From Planctomycetota bacterium (GTDB lineage: Bacteria; Planctomycetota; Phycisphaerae; Tepidisphaerales; Tepidisphaeraceae): 64,000 nucleotides of DNA. The stretch lies in assembly GCA_038746835.1 (NCBI GenBank), contig JBCDKH010000001.1:1-64000 (forward strand), written 5' to 3'. This document shows, piece by piece, positions 5,400 through 62,311 of the stretch (its first letter is position 1; each line of letters begins with the position of its first letter). Made by a program: the position numbers and the translations under genes. Below the pieces are notes generated by a model. The model was not told the DNA's origin. It saw nothing but the letters and a program-made list of their open reading frames with translations, and ran no database searches.

Positions 5400-7178
5400 A
5401 TGTGGAAAACATTTCTCGTCGTCCTGCTTTTTCCCTGCCTCGCTCTCGCTGCCAAGGTTGAAGTCGTCGCCACGGACGGCAACCACCAACTGCTGATCGA
5501 CGGCGAACCCTTCTTCGTCAAAGGAGGTGGTGGTGATGGCCCCAAGGACGTGCTTGCCGCCGTTGGTGGCAACGCGTTTCGGACATGGGGCACCGACAAC
5601 CTGCTGGACCAGCTCGACGAGGCCGAGTCGCTCGGCCTGAAGGTCGCCGTCGGCATCTGGCTCGGTCATGAGCGGCACGGCTTCGACTACAACGACAAGG
5701 CCCAGGTCGCGGAGCAATTCGAATCAGCCAATGCCGCCATCGATGCGTTCAAAGACCACCCTGCCGTGCTGCTTTGGTCGATTGGCAACGAAATGGAAGG
5801 CTTCGCGGACGGCGACAACGAGAAGATCTGGGCCGCGGTTGAAGAGATCGCGGCCTACGCGAAGGCGACCGACCCCAACCACCCCACCATGACCGTCGTC
5901 GCCGAGATCGGCGGCGAACGCGTGCGGGCGATGCACGAGCTCACGCCCAGCATCGACATCGTCGGCATCAACGCCTACGGCGGCGCACCAAGCATCGCCG
6001 AGCGTTACCGCGAAGCCGGCGGTACCAAGCCGTTCATCCTCACCGAGTTCGGGCCCGTCGGTACGTGGGAAGTCCAAAAGAACGACTGGGGCGCGGTGCC
6101 CGAACCCACGAGCAGCGAGAAGGCACAGTACTACGGCCTGGCCTATCGCAACTCGGTTCTGGCTGAGAAGGACAAGCTCTGCCTGGGCAGCTTCGCCTTC
6201 ACCTGGGGCTTCAAGCAGGAAGCCACCGCCACGTGGTTCGGCATGTTCTATGACGACAACACCAAGCTGGCGGCGGTCGATGTGATGCAGGAACTTTGGA
6301 CCGGAGCGCCGCCTCGAAATCGCGTGCCACAGATCGAGCCGATTCGCGCTCCCGGCAACCGCTTCATCGAGGGCCAGACCGTTACGTTCACTGTCGACGC
6401 GTTCGATCCGGGAGGTGAGCCGCTCACCGCGCAATGGAAGCTTTACGCCGAGGCCGAGGAGTACCGCGTGGGTGGTGACGCGGAGCCAAAGCCCGATCGC
6501 TTTGCAGATGCCGTCATTGAATCCAACCTCAACTCGGCCACCATTCGCATGCCCGATCAACCCGGCGCTTACCGGGTGTTCGCCATCGTTCGCGATCCCG
6601 CCGGCGGCGGTGCGACGGCCAACATGCCAGTCTTCGTGCAGGACTCCGACACCGCCGCCAAAGAACGCCTCGCCGTCGCCCCCGAACTGCCGCTGGTGCT
6701 CTACGCGGACGACATCGGCCCGATGCCATACGTGCCTTCGGGCTGGGTGGGCAAAACAGACGCTCTGTCCGTCGAAAACAACGACACCAAGTACGCCAAC
6801 TCCGGCAACACCGCAATGCGCGTCGCATTCATGAGCCCTGGCGACTGGGCCGGCGTTGTCTGGCAGAACCCCGCCAACGATTGGGGTGACCTCCCCGGCG
6901 GGTTCGACCTGAGCGACGCCACCAAACTGACCTTTTTCGCCCGCGGCGAAACCGGCGGCGAGAAGGTCGACTTCAGCTTCGGCGCCCTTCGCGAAGGCCA
7001 GGCGTTCACCGACACCGCCGCTGGCAAGGTTGTCGTCGAGCTGACAGACGAATGGCAGCAATACGAGATCGACCTCACGGGCAAAGACCTTCGCCGAATC
7101 AAAACTGGCTTCGCTTTCGCCATCCCCGGCCAAGGCAAGCCTGTCGTCTTTTATCTGGATGACGTGCGGTACGAGTGA
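5400..7178 (+). CDS. Secreted TIM-barrel glycoside hydrolase (GH2/GH5-like clan A) with C-terminal carbohydrate-binding-like domain
   Basis: The protein (592 residues from the ATG at 5400) has a signal peptide, WKTFLVVLLFPCLALA, then a barrel domain to about residue 310. LLWSIGNEMEG holds the probable acid/base Glu (about residue 131) and FILTEFGPVG the nucleophile Glu (about 216). This is the NE...TEFG layout of clan A glycosidases. An Ig-like segment (VTFTVDAFDPGGEPLTAQWK) follows. The last 150 residues form a jelly roll (LVLYADDIGP...VVFYLDDVRY) like carbohydrate-binding modules. The frame is open back to 5361, but starting at 5400 gives the better signal peptide; neither start has a clear ribosome site. 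The substrate cannot be assigned. Confidence 0.82.
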   Translation: MWKTFLVVLLFPCLALAAKVEVVATDGNHQLLIDGEPFFVKGGGGDGPKDVLAAVGGNAFRTWGTDNLLDQLDEAESLGLKVAVGIWLGHERHGFDYNDKAQVAEQFESANAAIDAFKDHPAVLLWSIGNEMEGFADGDNEKIWAAVEEIAAYAKATDPNHPTMTVVAEIGGERVRAMHELTPSIDIVGINAYGGAPSIAERYREAGGTKPFILTEFGPVGTWEVQKNDWGAVPEPTSSEKAQYYGLAYRNSVLAEKDKLCLGSFAFTWGFKQEATATWFGMFYDDNTKLAAVDVMQELWTGAPPRNRVPQIEPIRAPGNRFIEGQTVTFTVDAFDPGGEPLTAQWKLYAEAEEYRVGGDAEPKPDRFADAVIESNLNSATIRMPDQPGAYRVFAIVRDPAGGGATANMPVFVQDSDTAAKERLAVAPELPLVLYADDIGPMPYVPSGWVGKTDALSVENNDTKYANSGNTAMRVAFMSPGDWAGVVWQNPANDWGDLPGGFDLSDATKLTFFARGETGGEKVDFSFGALREGQAFTDTAAGKVVVELTDEWQQYEIDLTGKDLRRIKTGFAFAIPGQGKPVVFYLDDVRYE

Positions 7179-7229
7179 GCATCGATTGGGCCTGGTGAAT
7201 CGCTAATCGCGACGCATATCTTCTCGGTC

Positions 7230-8795
7230 ATGCCCGGCCGCGGACGATGGTTCCTCATCGCCGCGGCCGGTTTGCTTTGGCTCGCGATCACGACGCCCAA
7301 GCTTCTCCAGCACGCGTCCGCCAACACCGCCGACCTCGACACCGGCAACTACCACCACCTCGCCTGGGCCATCGCCCACCTCGGCCCGGCCGAAGGCTTC
7401 GCTAGCAGTGTCCTCACGCGGCACCACCTCGGCGAGCACTGTTCGCCGGTCATGCTGCTCGTCGCCCTCCAGTACCTCGTCTGGCCCAGCGCGTACGTGC
7501 TGATGCTCCTCCAGGCGACGGCTGTCTGGGCGACGATCTGGATGACACTGCTCTTCGCCCACCACACCCTCCGTCATCCTGAGCGAGCGCAGCGAGTCGA
7601 AGGACCTCGTCTGGAGGTCGTAAACGATCCCGAACGACGTCCCTCGACTGCGCTCGGGATGACGGATGGGACGCGACGGATCATCCTGGCCGTCTTCCTC
7701 GCGATGCTGCTCGTCTGGCCGCCGTTGACGGCGACGCTCGCGACGCAGTTTCAGCCGATCGAACTGGCCGCGCCGCTCGTCGCGCTGTCGCTGCTCCTCG
7801 TCCACACGCGACGGACACGATGGCTCTGGCTGACAATTCCGCTGCTCCTGTCGACGCGCGAAAGTGCCCCACTGGCCGTGGTCGGCATCGGGCTCTACGC
7901 GGGCATCGGGCATCGGCGCTGGGGCCTGTTCGGCGTCCTGACCACGGTCGCGATCGCATGGCTCGTGATCGCGATGGGCGTCGTCATGCCCTACTTCCGC
8001 GGCGGTGCCGAGTGGGGCCACACCAGCTACGTCGACTGGTCGGCCGCCTGGGACGACAAGGCCGAGTACCTGCTCGTCATGCTCCTCGGACTCGGCCTCT
8101 TCCCCTACCTCGGCAGACATTCGTTGGCAGCGACGATTGGCGTGATTCCTGGACTTTTGCTCAATGTCTCAGTCGCTCGTTGGACGCAGTACAGCTTCGT
8201 CGGGCACTACGACGCCCAGACGATCCCGTTCCTCATGATCGCCGCCGCGCACGGCCTTCGCGCCCTGACGACGCTCAACCGCACCATCGCGTTGACGGTC
8301 CCGTCGCTCGCGCTCTCGCTCATTCTGTGGGGCATCCCCGGCACCAAGACCGTCTGGCAGCGACTCGACGACTGGTGGCCCTCCGCCGACCGCCGCGCGA
8401 CGATCGCCGAAGCGGTCGAGATGGCCGAGCGCTACCGCAACGCACCCGCGCTCACCGCGCACCATCGTCTCGGCCCGCACGTCGCCGGTCGGCCCAACTA
8501 CGTCGCCGAACGCACCGGCCGAACCAAGGAGAAATGGGTCTGGTGGATCTCGACCCGTGCCCGCCCCGGCCACCTGTTCCTGATCCCGCGTGAGGACAAC
8601 GCCTTCGTCAAGAGCGGCTTCCCCGGCCAGGTCCGCCGCAGCGGCTCGGCCGTCCTGATCGAACGCGGCAACTGCGTCGAACTCTGGCAATGGCCGTTGG
8701 ATGCGCCCGCCCACGGCAACACGGAAGCCGCCCGCGCCTACGCCGCCTGGCTCCACGCCGGCGACGACGACGAACGATCGGAATACGACCCGTGA
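7230..8795 (+). CDS. DUF2079 polytopic membrane protein carrying an in-frame palindromic repeat
   Basis: The 521-residue protein has many hydrophobic helices and the DUF2079 opening: DTGNYHHLAWAIAH, then RHHLGEHCSPVMLLVALQYL. Later it has ATLATQFQPIELAAPLVAL and STRESAPLAVVGIGLY. The family is related to GT-C glycosyltransferase-like membrane proteins, but its reaction is not established. Residues about 114-146 (HPERAQRVEGPR...STALGMTDG) are not membrane-like. They are the translation of the dispersed inverted repeat at 7571-7666, placed in a loop between two helices without breaking the frame. The gene lies alone between the glycosidase and a convergent methyltransferase. Confidence 0.85.
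   Translation: MPGRGRWFLIAAAGLLWLAITTPKLLQHASANTADLDTGNYHHLAWAIAHLGPAEGFASSVLTRHHLGEHCSPVMLLVALQYLVWPSAYVLMLLQATAVWATIWMTLLFAHHTLRHPERAQRVEGPRLEVVNDPERRPSTALGMTDGTRRIILAVFLAMLLVWPPLTATLATQFQPIELAAPLVALSLLLVHTRRTRWLWLTIPLLLSTRESAPLAVVGIGLYAGIGHRRWGLFGVLTTVAIAWLVIAMGVVMPYFRGGAEWGHTSYVDWSAAWDDKAEYLLVMLLGLGLFPYLGRHSLAATIGVIPGLLLNVSVARWTQYSFVGHYDAQTIPFLMIAAAHGLRALTTLNRTIALTVPSLALSLILWGIPGTKTVWQRLDDWWPSADRRATIAEAVEMAERYRNAPALTAHHRLGPHVAGRPNYVAERTGRTKEKWVWWISTRARPGHLFLIPREDNAFVKSGFPGQVRRSGSAVLIERGNCVELWQWPLDAPAHGNTEAARAYAAWLHAGDDDERSEYDP
7571..7666. repeat. Dispersed inverted repeat, copy A (inside DUF2079 gene)
   Basis: The left arm begins CCGTCATCCTGAGCGAGCGC and the right arm ends CTCGGGATGACGGA; they are imperfectly complementary around a short variable centre. 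Six other copies or half copies occur at 33107, 38181, 39796, 40268, 40761 and 57748. This is the only copy inside a recognised gene. Confidence 0.9.
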
Positions 8796-8863
8796 CGTCG
8801 AAAGCGTTTCGACGTGCCTCGCTGGCTCCTCCAAACCTGCCGCCCTTCCGCGTCGAGCTGCTA

Positions 8864-8942
8864 GCGATTAGCGACTAGGGCCTAGGTCAGAGGAGGACGC
8901 ATCCCTTTCCGACCTAGGCCCTAACCGCTAACAGCTAATCGC
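8864..8942. repeat. CTAGGGCC palindrome, copy 1, between convergent genes
   Basis: The inner arms TAGGGCCTAGGTC (8876-8888) and GACCTAGGCCCTA (8911-8923) are perfectly complementary around a 22-base loop. The outer arms GCGATTAGC (8864-8872) and GCTAATCGC (8934-8942) are also perfect complements. It fills the gap between the 3' ends of the DUF2079 gene and the methyltransferase gene. Relatives lie at 56791-56873 and 62659-62748. Confidence 0.9.
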
Positions 8943-8950
8943 TTCCGGTC

Positions 8951-9655
8951 CTACGGCCTCGTCGCTTCGAGGTAGGCGTAGAGCGAGCCGTGGCGGGTTG
9001 GGGTGGGGAAGCGGTCGACGGTGGCGGTGGGGAAGATGTGGCGGAAGACGGTGAGGATCTCGTCGGCAGACGAGAGGTGTTCGTGCCGCATGAGGGTCTT
9101 GTAGCTGAAGCCGGTGCGGAGGCGGTAGGACAGGCCGGTCGTCAAGCGCCAGCCGAGGCCCCAGAGGAAGCCGCCTTCGCTGGGGATGCCGTGCTGCATC
9201 AGGCCGCCGGGGGCGAGGAGGTCGCGGCAGCGCTCCAGAACGGCCGGCAGGTCGGCGACGTGTTCCAGAACCGCGACGCTGATGATCCGCGAGTAACGCC
9301 GATCGGACGGCACGTCGGCGATGTCGGCGAAGACGTCGCGGACGGCCGAACGGTGCGGGCTGTCGGCGTACAGGTGCTCTTGCGGCTCGACGATGTCGAG
9401 GCCCCACTCGCCCAGGTGCGGCGACTCGTGCGGCACGTGGTTGAGCGTCCCGGCACCGAGTTCGAGCACTGGCCCCGCGATGCCGCCGGCGGCGACGCGC
9501 TCGTGCATCCAGCCCTCGGCACCCTGGGCCAGGCGGCTCATCAGGCCCTTGCCCTGCCGGTTCTTCTTGTACTCGTCCGCGTAGATCGCCGCCTGCTTTG
9601 GCGGGAGCGGGGGTCGCTCGCGTGGATAGCTCGCCAGCAGCTCGTCTGGCGTCAC
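8951..9655 (-). CDS. SAM-dependent methyltransferase (class I, Methyltransf_11-like)
   Basis: The 234-residue protein has motif I, GPVLELGAGTLNH, near residues 62-74. An acidic second strand follows (WGLDIVEP), then a post-motif SVAVLEHVADLPAVLERCRDLLAPGG typical of SAM methyltransferases. The start is GTG at 9655, which overlaps the stop of the upstream gene in a GTGA junction and indicates translational coupling. The longer frame to 9862 is only the antisense-like extension inside the neighbour. The substrate is unknown; coupling to a zinc-ribbon membrane protein gives no clear hint. Confidence 0.87.
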   Translation of the reverse strand: MTPDELLASYPRERPPLPPKQAAIYADEYKKNRQGKGLMSRLAQGAEGWMHERVAAGGIAGPVLELGAGTLNHVPHESPHLGEWGLDIVEPQEHLYADSPHRSAVRDVFADIADVPSDRRYSRIISVAVLEHVADLPAVLERCRDLLAPGGLMQHGIPSEGGFLWGLGWRLTTGLSYRLRTGFSYKTLMRHEHLSSADEILTVFRHIFPTATVDRFPTPTRHGSLYAYLEATRP

Positions 9656-33087: not shown

Positions 33088-33106
33088 GCGCGATGATACG
33101 GCTTGT

Positions 33107-33198
33107 CCGTCATCCCGAGCGAAGCCGAGGGACCTCGCCTGGTTCTGCGTGGTCGCGCAGGCGAGCTCCTTCGACTCGCTGCGCCCGCTCAGGATGAC
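33107..33198. repeat. Dispersed inverted repeat, copy B
   Basis: The left end CCGTCATCCCGAGCGAAGCC and the right end GCTCAGGATGAC match the family described at 7571. It lies in the 128-base gap between ebfC and the class V aminotransferase gene. Confidence 0.9.
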
Positions 33199-33215
33199 CT
33201 AACGCCGGTTTCGGG

Positions 33216-38156: not shown

Positions 38157-38180
38157 GACATCTCCGTCGTTCGTTCTGTT

Positions 38181-38276
38181 CCGTCATCCCGAGCGCAGCC
38201 GAGGGACCTCGCAGCGGCTCCGCGACGAAGGCCGGACGAGGTCCTTCGACTCGCTGCGCTCGCTCAGGATGACGGA
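38181..38276. repeat. Dispersed inverted repeat, copy C
   Basis: The left end CCGTCATCCCGAGCGCAGCC and the right end CGCTCAGGATGACGGA are well matched to copies B and D. It lies between the GNAT gene start and the beta-sandwich gene stop. Confidence 0.92.
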
Positions 38277-38298
38277 TGGGTGCCACCTGGAGCTTCCT

Positions 38299-39595: not shown

Positions 39596-39795
39596 GGTGG
39601 CGTTCTTTCTGGAGCGCCGGCTCCACAGGGCAAGCGAGAGATCAAGGTTGAGCCGGCACGCGTTCACCGTGAACAGGTCGCCGGGGGTGGGGTGGGGAGT
39701 TCGCCTGCACCGCCGACATCGGCCACGCGGCCTACCCCCTTTACGCGAAGCTCGATTTTTCTGCCCCCACCCCACCGCCCCCCACGCCATCCCCT

Positions 39796-39907
39796 CCGTC
39801 ATCCCGAGCGCAGCCGAGGGACCTCGGCTGGTTCTGCACGATCGCCCAAGGCGAGGTCCTTCGACTCGCTGCGCTCGCTCAGGATGACGGATCGCTCAGG
39901 ATGACGG
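39796..39907. repeat. Dispersed inverted repeat, copy D, with duplicated right end
   Basis: The left end is CCGTCATCCCGAGCGCAGCC. At the right, TCGCTCAGGATGACGGA occurs twice in direct tandem (about 39875-39907). It ends ten bases from the stop codon of the GIY-YIG gene. Confidence 0.93.
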
Positions 39908-40238: not shown

Positions 40239-40267
40239 GCCCCCGAACCTATCACGAACAACACATC

Positions 40268-40362
40268 CCGTCATCCCGAGCGAGCGAAGCGAGCCGAGGG
40301 ACCTCGCCTGCTTCTCGGGTCCGACCCACCCGAGGTCCCTCGGCTGCGCTCGGGATGACGGA
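40268..40362. repeat. Dispersed inverted repeat, copy E
   Basis: The left end is CCGTCATCCCGAGCGAGCGA and the right end is TGCGCTCGGGATGACGGA. It lies just upstream of the GIY-YIG start codon; with copy D it encloses that gene in about 570 bases. Confidence 0.93.
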
Positions 40363-40967
40363 AGGGGCCAAGCTGCAACGCCTCCAAACCAACGAATGCG
40401 CGAAACGCACACCGACGATGCCGTCGCCCGGAGCCAACCCGGTCCGAGAAAATCGCCCCTGCCACCCTTTCATCGCCGCAGGTCCGACAACAAGGTCCGC
40501 GTACCCGCCTGCAGAACGACGGGTCATGGCTGCAGCGTTCCTCTGCAGCCATGCAATGCTCCGCCGCAGGGCTGCAGCGTCACTTGCGCGGAGCAAAAAC
40601 GACATCGCAGCCTTGCAGCGTTGCGCTGCAGGGCTGCAGAACGAGGTGCGCTCCGCAAATACTCCATCGCACGGCTGCAAAGCGACATCGCAGTCGTGCA
40701 GCGGAGCCATGCGTCCAGAAAAGCCAACGCCGCGAGACCTCGAACGGCGACGCCGCTCCTCCGTCATCCCGAGCGATCCGTCATCCCGAGCGCAGCCGAG
40801 GGACCTCGCCTGCGATCCGCCAAATCATTCAAGCGAGGTCCCTCGACTCGCTCCGCTCGCTCGGGATGACGGCGTGGGCCTGTTGAACCCCCAAATTCTG
40901 CGGGCGATCGCGGGGCAGGCCCCGCGGCCACAAGCAGGGCTTTGCCTGCTGCTGCGTCGGACATCTC
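40363..40967. other. Gene-free stretch with GCTGCAG-rich degenerate repeats and repeat copy F
   Basis: Between copy E and the GH16 stop there is no convincing gene. From about 40500 to 40720, GCTGCAG, TGCAGCG and ATGCAATGC words recur many times on both strands, and CGACATCGCAG(C/T)C(T/G)TGCAGCG occurs twice. Small frames crossing it give Leu/Gln/Ala/Arg-rich peptides in several frames, which argues for DNA repeats rather than a gene. Two hairpins near 40909-40926 and 40933-40950 follow the GH16 stop and may end its transcript. Confidence 0.6.
40761..40872. repeat. Dispersed inverted repeat, copy F, with duplicated left end
   Basis: TCCGTCATCCCGAGCG occurs twice in tandem at the left end (about 40760-40792) before a normal body; the right end is CGCTCGGGATGACGG. 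The duplicated word is the mirror of the one duplicated in copy D. Confidence 0.93.
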
Positions 40968-56790: not shown

Positions 56791-56873
56791 GTTGCTAGCG
56801 ACTAGGGCCTAGGCCAGAGAGGGACGCATCCCTTTCCGACCTAGGCCCTAGCAGCTAATAGCTAATCGCTTCC
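56791..56873. repeat. CTAGGGCC palindrome, copy 2, between convergent genes
   Basis: TAGGGCCTAGGCC (56803-56815) and GACCTAGGCCCTA (56838-56850) pair with one mismatch. The loop sequence GGGACGCATCCCTTTCC is nearly the same as that of copy 1. It lies between the 3' ends of the L,D-transpeptidase gene and the FN3-like gene, six bases from the latter. Confidence 0.92.
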
Positions 56874-56878
56874 GCCAC

Positions 56879-57589: not shown

Positions 57590-58090
57590 GGCAAGGTTCC
57601 TTCCGGGGGAGGGTTGATGGTGGGCCGAGCCCGCATCCGTTGCGGCTCTTGCCAACCACATCGGGCCGGGGGCGATGCCGGTTAAGCCGACCACGAGATT
57701 TTCCACCGCCGCCCAAAAGACCGCTCCCTCAGACGAAGCCAGCCCCTCCGTCATCCCGAACGCAGCCGAGGGACCTCGCCTGATCCGACCACAACCACCT
57801 GCCCCGTGCGGCCCAGCACTTGGCGTCACACTCCGCGCCTTGTTAGTGTTCCCTGTGGTGGCGGAAGTGTCCCGCAATCTCGCGAACCGCACGATTGATC
57901 CGTGGACAAGCGCGATAATGCGGCCCGTGCGATTTCCCCGCAGCGCCAGCCGCTATCCCTTCGCCGTGCCCGCCACGGCGGGCCCGGACACCCCCACCAC
58001 CGGCTTCGAACAATTGCAGAGCATCTCCAAGCGAGCGACGAAGCTATTCTCCGGCCACGCCCAAAGGCGAGCCGTCGCGGGCCCGCCTCA
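57590..58090. other. Intergenic region at the left border of the AT-richer island
   Basis: This 501-base stretch has no supported gene. It holds a half copy of the dispersed repeat (copy G, 57748-57783) and a GC hairpin at 57962-57983. The sequence after 58090 is clearly less GC-rich, so the island edge may lie here. I found no clear direct repeat that could be an attachment site. Confidence 0.55.
57748..57783. repeat. Dispersed inverted repeat, half copy G
   Basis: Only the left arm is present: CCGTCATCCCGAACGCAGCC followed by GAGGGACCTCGCC. The right arm is missing, so this is a decayed or truncated copy. Confidence 0.85.
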
Positions 58091-61802: not shown

Positions 61803-62059
61803 CTCCGCTGAACTTCGCGGCTCTTGCTAATCGCGTCAAGTGTGGCCTGCTTGACACGCCCGGTGCCCGGTGTCGCTGCTCGGAGCGTAGTTCGGTCGGG
61901 GCGGGTGGTCGAAGGCACTACGCTGCGTCCAGTGGCACCGAAGTGGTGGGCCGAATCCACCCTACCAGGGTTTCGGGTCGTCGTCGGCGAACTGGGTGAG
62001 TGCGGCGGTTCCGCGGCAGCGAAGTCGGAGGCGTATGCAGCCCCGGGAGCAGTTGGGAC

Positions 62060-62311
62060 ACCGGTGTTCGGCGTCAATCCACCGGTGTCGACGTTCCAAG
62101 CACCGGTGTTTGGGTCTCATCTACCGGTATTTACGGTTCATCCACCGGTGTTTGGAACTCATCCTCCGGTGTTTGAACTTGGTTCACCGGTGTATCGAGT
62201 TCATCCACCGGTGTTTGCGGTTCATCCACCGGTGTTTGAAGTGTGAATACCGGTGTTTGGAATCGAAACACCGGTGTTTGAAGTTCAAACACCGGTGGTG
62301 GAGGGTCCGAT
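62060..62311. repeat. Tandem array of 12 units with exact 21-bp period and ACCGGT core
   Basis: ACCGGT begins at 62060, 62081, 62102, 62123, 62144, 62165 (TCCGGT), 62186, 62207, 62228, 62249, 62270 and 62291, each exactly 21 bases from the last. The unit is close to ACCGGTGTTTGAAGTTCATCC. The core is a six-base palindrome and is often CACCGGTG. Variation is outside the core. There are no spacers of CRISPR type. Two helical turns per unit would put every core on the same face of DNA. Confidence 0.97.

Follow-up and report, generated by a model that had tools for sequence, protein, structure and literature searches.

An inverted pair of CGTC-tagged, REP-like hairpins in frame within a DUF2079 membrane protein gene of a Phycisphaerae genome

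A gene coding for a putative membrane protein contains, in a Phycisphaerae genome, a 96-base repeat which leaves its reading frame open. The locus raises the question of what kind of element this is, whether it was truly inserted, and whether repeats of this family supply coding sequence to the proteins that they enter. The analysed stretch of DNA, called the window in the following, is 64,000 nucleotides long, and its features are collected in Table 1. We favour, with a probability of about 0.8, a REP-like mobile palindrome, organized as a head-to-head heterodimer, which was inserted in a loop of the DUF2079 protein and kept with the frame open.

Table 1. Features of the window related to the repeat and to its host gene.
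Feature	Position	Strand	Basis
DUF2079 membrane protein gene, 521 aa, repeat inside	7230..8795	+	ORF list, Pfam, codon model
Hydrophobic segment ahead of repeat, residues 90-109	7497..7556	+	Kyte-Doolittle 19-residue windows
Repeat copy: head-to-head dimer, two unequal CGTC-tagged arms and variable spacer, in frame	7571..7666	+	blastn, folding, covariance model, codon model
Left arm, 38 nt: CGTC tag, ATCCT stem start, inner GA-GC-GA-GC-GCA-GC-GA-GTC-GA, AGGA, CCTCG	7572..7609	+	
Variable spacer separating the arms	7610..7634	.	alignment of copies
Inverted right arm in its short form, 30 nt: CGTC tag, stem ATCCC...GGGA, loop GCA	7635..7664	-	
Hydrophobic segment beyond repeat, residues 148-172	7671..7745	+	Kyte-Doolittle 19-residue windows
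Further repeat copy	33102..33203	-	covariance model
Further repeat copy	38176..38278	-	covariance model
Further repeat copy	39791..39893	-	covariance model
Further repeat copy	40265..40366	+	covariance model
Further repeat copy	40773..40875	-	covariance model
Solitary right arm	57746..57784	-	arm search

The host ORF was assigned to DUF2079 (PF09852, E 3.4e-24), with a profile match that runs over residues 28-425 and extends to both flanks of the repeat. It shows no stop in its 521 codons and was called whole, as a single gene, by a codon model whose 60-codon windows were positive in 94% of in-frame and 2% of off-frame cases. The repeat is open in the frame of this gene, touches residues 114-146 and falls between the two hydrophobic segments. 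An earlier, sequence-only reading had placed an in-frame repeat copy in an inter-helix loop of a DUF2079 protein, and both the frame and the location were confirmed. AlphaFold2, run with a two-sequence DUF2079 alignment, reached a mean pLDDT of only 37, and its model was set aside. A scan of positions 6500-9500 against Rfam produced two matches below the gathering score, which were put down to chance.

That the segment is a copy of a repeat, as had been stated, was readily verified. A blastn search with 7571-7666 gave 43 rows in the same genome, from the best 40 of 191 candidates scored, and the other full-length rows in the same orientation were 82-88% identical to the query. A covariance model returned 150 rows at E<=0.001, the best 150 of 5794 candidates; after subtraction of two opposite-strand doubles, these correspond to at least 148 distinct places. 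In the 430 kb surrounding the copies, dimers were complete in 145 cases and 7 further matches were partial, and the window, which had not been selected for copies, holds 6 dimers and 1 solitary arm. The unit is typically about 92-95 bp long in this genome, the copy at 7571-7666 measuring 96. The distance from CGTC to GACGG, evaluated for the 114 of 145 copies with both end motifs exact, was 93 in 25 copies, 94 in 44, 95 in 8 and of other lengths in 37. The earlier remark that the element is a multiple of three is thus correct for the copy at 7571-7666 and fails for the family.

Alignment of 40 copies revealed conserved ends and a variable spacer. The terminal inverted repeats are near-perfect, and each arm starts with CGTC and may form a small hairpin of its own; the two arms are also strongly predicted to form a single long hairpin between them. 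The predicted RNA fold of 7571-7666 has an energy of -58.7 kcal/mol (z -6.6, equalled by none of 200 shuffles), and folding as DNA gave z -5.1 versus shuffles. Single arms, evaluated by standard DNA energies, folded no better than shuffles; by the same energies, the arms of two relatives were predicted in exactly the GNA-loop shape.

The hairpin proposed for an arm consists of 5 pairs, 2x2 GA mismatches, 2 pairs and a 3-nt loop, followed by a tail which reads CCTCG or TCTCG/TCTAG. The short arm in relatives can be written as ATCCY, GA, GC, GNA loop, GC, GA, RGGAT, and the left arm of the present genome carries one additional GA-GC step compared with this short form. In 114 copies, the tag bases at the 5' end have frequencies of 0.89 (C), 0.99 (G), 1.0 (T) and 1.0 (C), the last two values being imposed by the search motif; arms from 7 other genomes carry either CGTC or TGTC. 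Among 122 pattern-matched arms of the 145 copies, position 5 of the left-arm stem is T-A in 107, C-G in 12 and mismatched in 3. In 13 short arms, derived from 8 genomes, position 2 is always T-A and position 1 is A-T in 9, the 4 unpaired ones all belonging to the present genome. The covariation of this set was 0.245, versus 0.106 for shuffled sequences (0/500 as high), and register 0 was the best. An arm pattern in which two positions of the stem were left free, each independent of the other, matched in 37 of 392 genomes of the phylum; the stem pairs at the 142 listed places, counted by eye, were C..G in 14, T..A in 128 and mixed in none, and the backward control of the pattern gave 0 matches in every listed phylum genome. 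The most fitting description of the unit is two CGTC-tagged REP hairpins placed head to head.

Outside of the present genome, the covariance model found matches in 10 of the 26 genomes of the family at E<=0.001 and in 24 of the 397 genomes of the class at E<=1e-6, under stricter filters. The best copies from seven relatives were read, and every one is a tagged arm pair. The long left arm was also found, letter-perfect, in six IMG/VR contigs. One IMG/VR contig (L218, 13962 bases) includes 14 matches to the arm pattern, some with far longer self-complementary loops. A plasmid search with the full element produced no match; the same search with the left arm, at E<=10, listed 26 records with E between 0.1 and 5, which were treated as chance. 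Searching the open-access literature with the letters of the repeat and with the encoded peptides found no relevant paper.

Several of these features recall known systems. According to Di Nocera et al. 2013 (PMC3733652), no transposase lies next to CGTC REPs, which occur mainly as head-to-head dimers and are found inside genes too; REPs, including a CGTC family, mostly lie close to gene 3' ends and are sometimes intragenic. For four CGTC families, the paper describes a stem of 8-9 bp, a loop of 4-5 nt and an unpaired tail mostly fitting CCA. Its phylum list for CGTC repeats includes five phyla, Planctomycetes not being among them, the abstract being worded more loosely; Rickettsia RPE-4 and RPE-6 are assigned there to CGTC REPs, and GTAG tags to RAYT-linked REPs. 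The repeat shares with CGTC REPs the outward CGTC/TGTC tags, the prevalence of head-to-head dimers, whose spacers mostly measure 20-100 bp, the location just after genes with occasional intragenic copies, and the lack of an adjacent transposase; a stem starting with A-T then T-A may be a further common feature. It differs from the four families by its 5-pair stem, GA mismatches, GNA triloop and CCTCG/TCTCG tail, in place of CCA. We place it as a variant of CGTC REPs because the general features are shared; stem length, loop and tail depart from the described families.

RAYT-associated REPs differ from the repeat both in their tag, GTAG rather than CGTC, and in their link to a RAYT. REPINs, described by Bertels and Rainey 2011 (PMC3116915) as REP doublets in inverted orientation, with a predicted hairpin and mostly extragenic, resemble it on all these points. 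Rickettsia palindromic elements (RPE-1, RPE-4, RPE-6) are, like the present repeat, palindromic and in frame within unrelated genes. A large share of RPEs lies within genes in Rickettsia, according to a review (PMC10969869); the present family differs, as gene calls put only 11 of 145 copies in genes and neither a peptide nor a frame is shared. In-frame insertion itself is a further example of a phenomenon known in other bacteria.

Whether the DUF2079 copy was inserted was evaluated by comparison with homologous genes. The only homologue, from another genus (one among 25 other genomes of the family, and one among 396 others of the class), is 46% identical, aligns on either side of the repeat and is devoid of it, an absence that the earlier reading had proposed to look for. 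A wider contig search found none with a protein query and only this known homologue with an alignment query. Elsewhere in its genome the model has 61 matches, a number to be read with care since a palindrome may score on both strands; one of them was read. Relative to the homologue, a net 17 residues are gained instead of 32, because the native loop is longer there, by about 14 residues at the site (counted by eye). The earlier statement that about 33 residues are added was therefore too generous. For the same reason, replacement of native sequence, or loss in one lineage, would be as likely as a clean insertion. The exact empty site is not visible, because this single homologue is only 46% identical.

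Two further genes provide more comparators. QueG carries the repeat in its DUF1730 domain (L099 3149-4141; C7:32848-33840). All 26 family genomes have the gene, and the repeat is missing from all 25 relatives. The loop concerned, variable among them, spans 36 residues here versus 13-30 in the 25 relatives. The native loop residues left outside of the repeat-encoded part are 7 (by eye), fewer than in any relative, so native residues are missing in QueG as in DUF2079. In Lnt (apolipoprotein N-acyltransferase; L093 279-1952, C198), the repeat lies between the N-terminal and hydrolase domains, is read in another frame, and is missing from all 8 homologous loci in the alignment, of which one is partial. 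In each of the three genes, the repeat is spanned or flanked by Pfam matches. Since DUF2079, QueG and Lnt of the relatives lack it, the repeat appears to have arrived in the present lineage, possibly with loss of native codons. These alignments support the DUF2079 copy as a derived, in-frame and apparently tolerated insertion; the proteins with an in-frame repeat are presumably still functional.

Such cases are rare. Coding sequence makes up about 85% of the window, yet only 11 of the 145 full copies are inside called genes, 18 being across a gene end and 116 intergenic; the three figures are approximate, as gene calls were obtained by our codon model and not by a standard gene finder. The 3' ends of genes neighbouring intergenic copies lie at a median of 12 bp from them (139 of 154 within 50 bp), and 5' ends at a median of 63 bp. 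Same-strand genes bound 70 of the copies. Gene entry by the repeat is an exception. The earlier claim that the repeat enters genes without killing them is supported, as apparent tolerance, for the in-frame copies in DUF2079, QueG and Lnt, and does not describe the behaviour of the family.

Of the 11 intragenic copies, five are convincing internal in-frame cases, two are doubtful, and four fall within 11 codons from an end. In addition to the three genes described above, the convincing set includes two weaker cases: a PMT_2-like protein, whose score of 24.4 bits is just below the Pfam cut-off of 26.1 and whose repeat lies beyond the region of the match, and an acyltransferase with the repeat ahead of its domain. 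As for the doubtful ones, C236 has no family match; in C158 the portion ahead of the repeat has none, and its sequence resembles that of a non-coding ORF. The latter copy (L008 576-2390; C158:2150-2252) immediately precedes a gene for an amino-acid kinase, and the repeat end GGGATGACGG contains an in-frame ATG which could be the kinase start codon.

The repeat is read in differing frames in the five internal cases. The mean number of open frames, out of 6 per copy, was 2.74, versus 2.85 in shuffled copies, and the hypothesis that the element evolved for openness in many frames was rejected on these values. With family lengths mixed modulo 3 and openness like that of shuffled copies, there is no sign of an element built for coding, and we attribute no function to the peptide that it encodes.

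The doublet-with-hairpin anatomy would also suit a REPIN, as described in PMC3116915, moved by a cognate Y1 transposase (RAYT) of the same genome. Three Y1_Tnp (PF01797) matches above the cut-off are indeed present here, and at least one in each of the 26 family genomes. Against this explanation, which is disfavoured and unlikely, the arm motif was found in none of 32 Y1-transposase loci, for a total of 95.6 kb (3 from the present genome and 29 from relatives, chosen among more matches, PF01797 being the sole family searched), and Y1 transposases are also present in genomes where the repeat is missing. The absence of arms from these loci agrees with the lack of an adjacent transposase reported for CGTC REPs in PMC3733652. 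By eye, the two readable Y1 loci of the present genome, L009 (C63) and L011 (C87), are each flanked by a different short palindrome of their own; they resemble REP-RAYT units, the C63 match having an internal TGA. A classic MITE, i.e. a deleted insertion sequence whose terminal inverted repeats are acted upon by a DDE transposase, would account for the near-perfect ends, the size of about 96 bp and the high copy number. It is very unlikely, as conservation resides in two arms, each covarying as a hairpin, with a spacer that varies, and no target-site duplication was detected: among 144 flank pairs, 648 combinations of offset and length gave at best 4/144. None was seen by eye at 7571-7666, where the sequence-only reading had suggested looking for one.

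The remaining alternatives concern the gene rather than the element. The copy might mark a pseudogene that happens to remain open, and the rarity of the DUF2079 gene (2 of 397 class genomes) would be compatible with its being dispensable; the positive codon signal across an ORF without stops, and the parallel cases in QueG and Lnt, which are conserved enzymes, make such decay quite unlikely. It might be supposed that no insertion ever occurred, and that an ancestral, poorly conserved loop resembles the repeat by chance, or that the assembly, a draft of 335 contigs, was joined at a repeat. This is contradicted by the data and extremely improbable: chance resemblance is excluded because of the 82-88% identity to dozens of copies, a chimeric join because the homologue aligns on both sides within one gene, and QueG and Lnt display the same pattern.

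Under the favoured reading of a REP-like mobile palindrome, an element with two hairpin units and outward CGTC tags would have inserted in the DUF2079 loop, between hydrophobic segments, and the copy would have been retained because the reading frame stayed open. The family may spread in trans, as single-stranded hairpin DNA, via a non-adjacent enzyme. Most copies would be tolerated directly behind genes, and the rare in-frame ones could persist in inter-helix loops or variable ones, since a soluble linker would presumably do no harm there. More tentatively, CGTC-like REPs with GNA loops and GA mismatches could be widespread in Planctomycetota, move as dimers without a RAYT and, on entering a gene, take the place of part of a variable loop instead of inserting cleanly, membrane proteins and the conserved enzymes QueG and Lnt thereby gaining a foreign loop; taken as a whole, this broader scheme is rather doubtful.

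The analysis extends in-frame REP insertions to Phycisphaerae, and the family-wide count shows how rare such survivors are. QueG, with its 25 comparators, is a suitable case for asking what a selfish insertion of 30 residues costs, and the cross-genome covariation yields a compact motif for finding the enzyme that moves REPs of the CGTC type.

Other repeats were observed in the window. A second, unrelated and partly palindromic repeat is present at 8869-8947, just behind the DUF2079 gene, and at 56796-56874, 48 kb off, the two copies being 92% identical over 79 bases. Finally, positions 62059-62301 contain a tandem array built around CACCGGTGTTTG, its period being 21 bases, for which ten overlapping copies were reported in the repeat listing.
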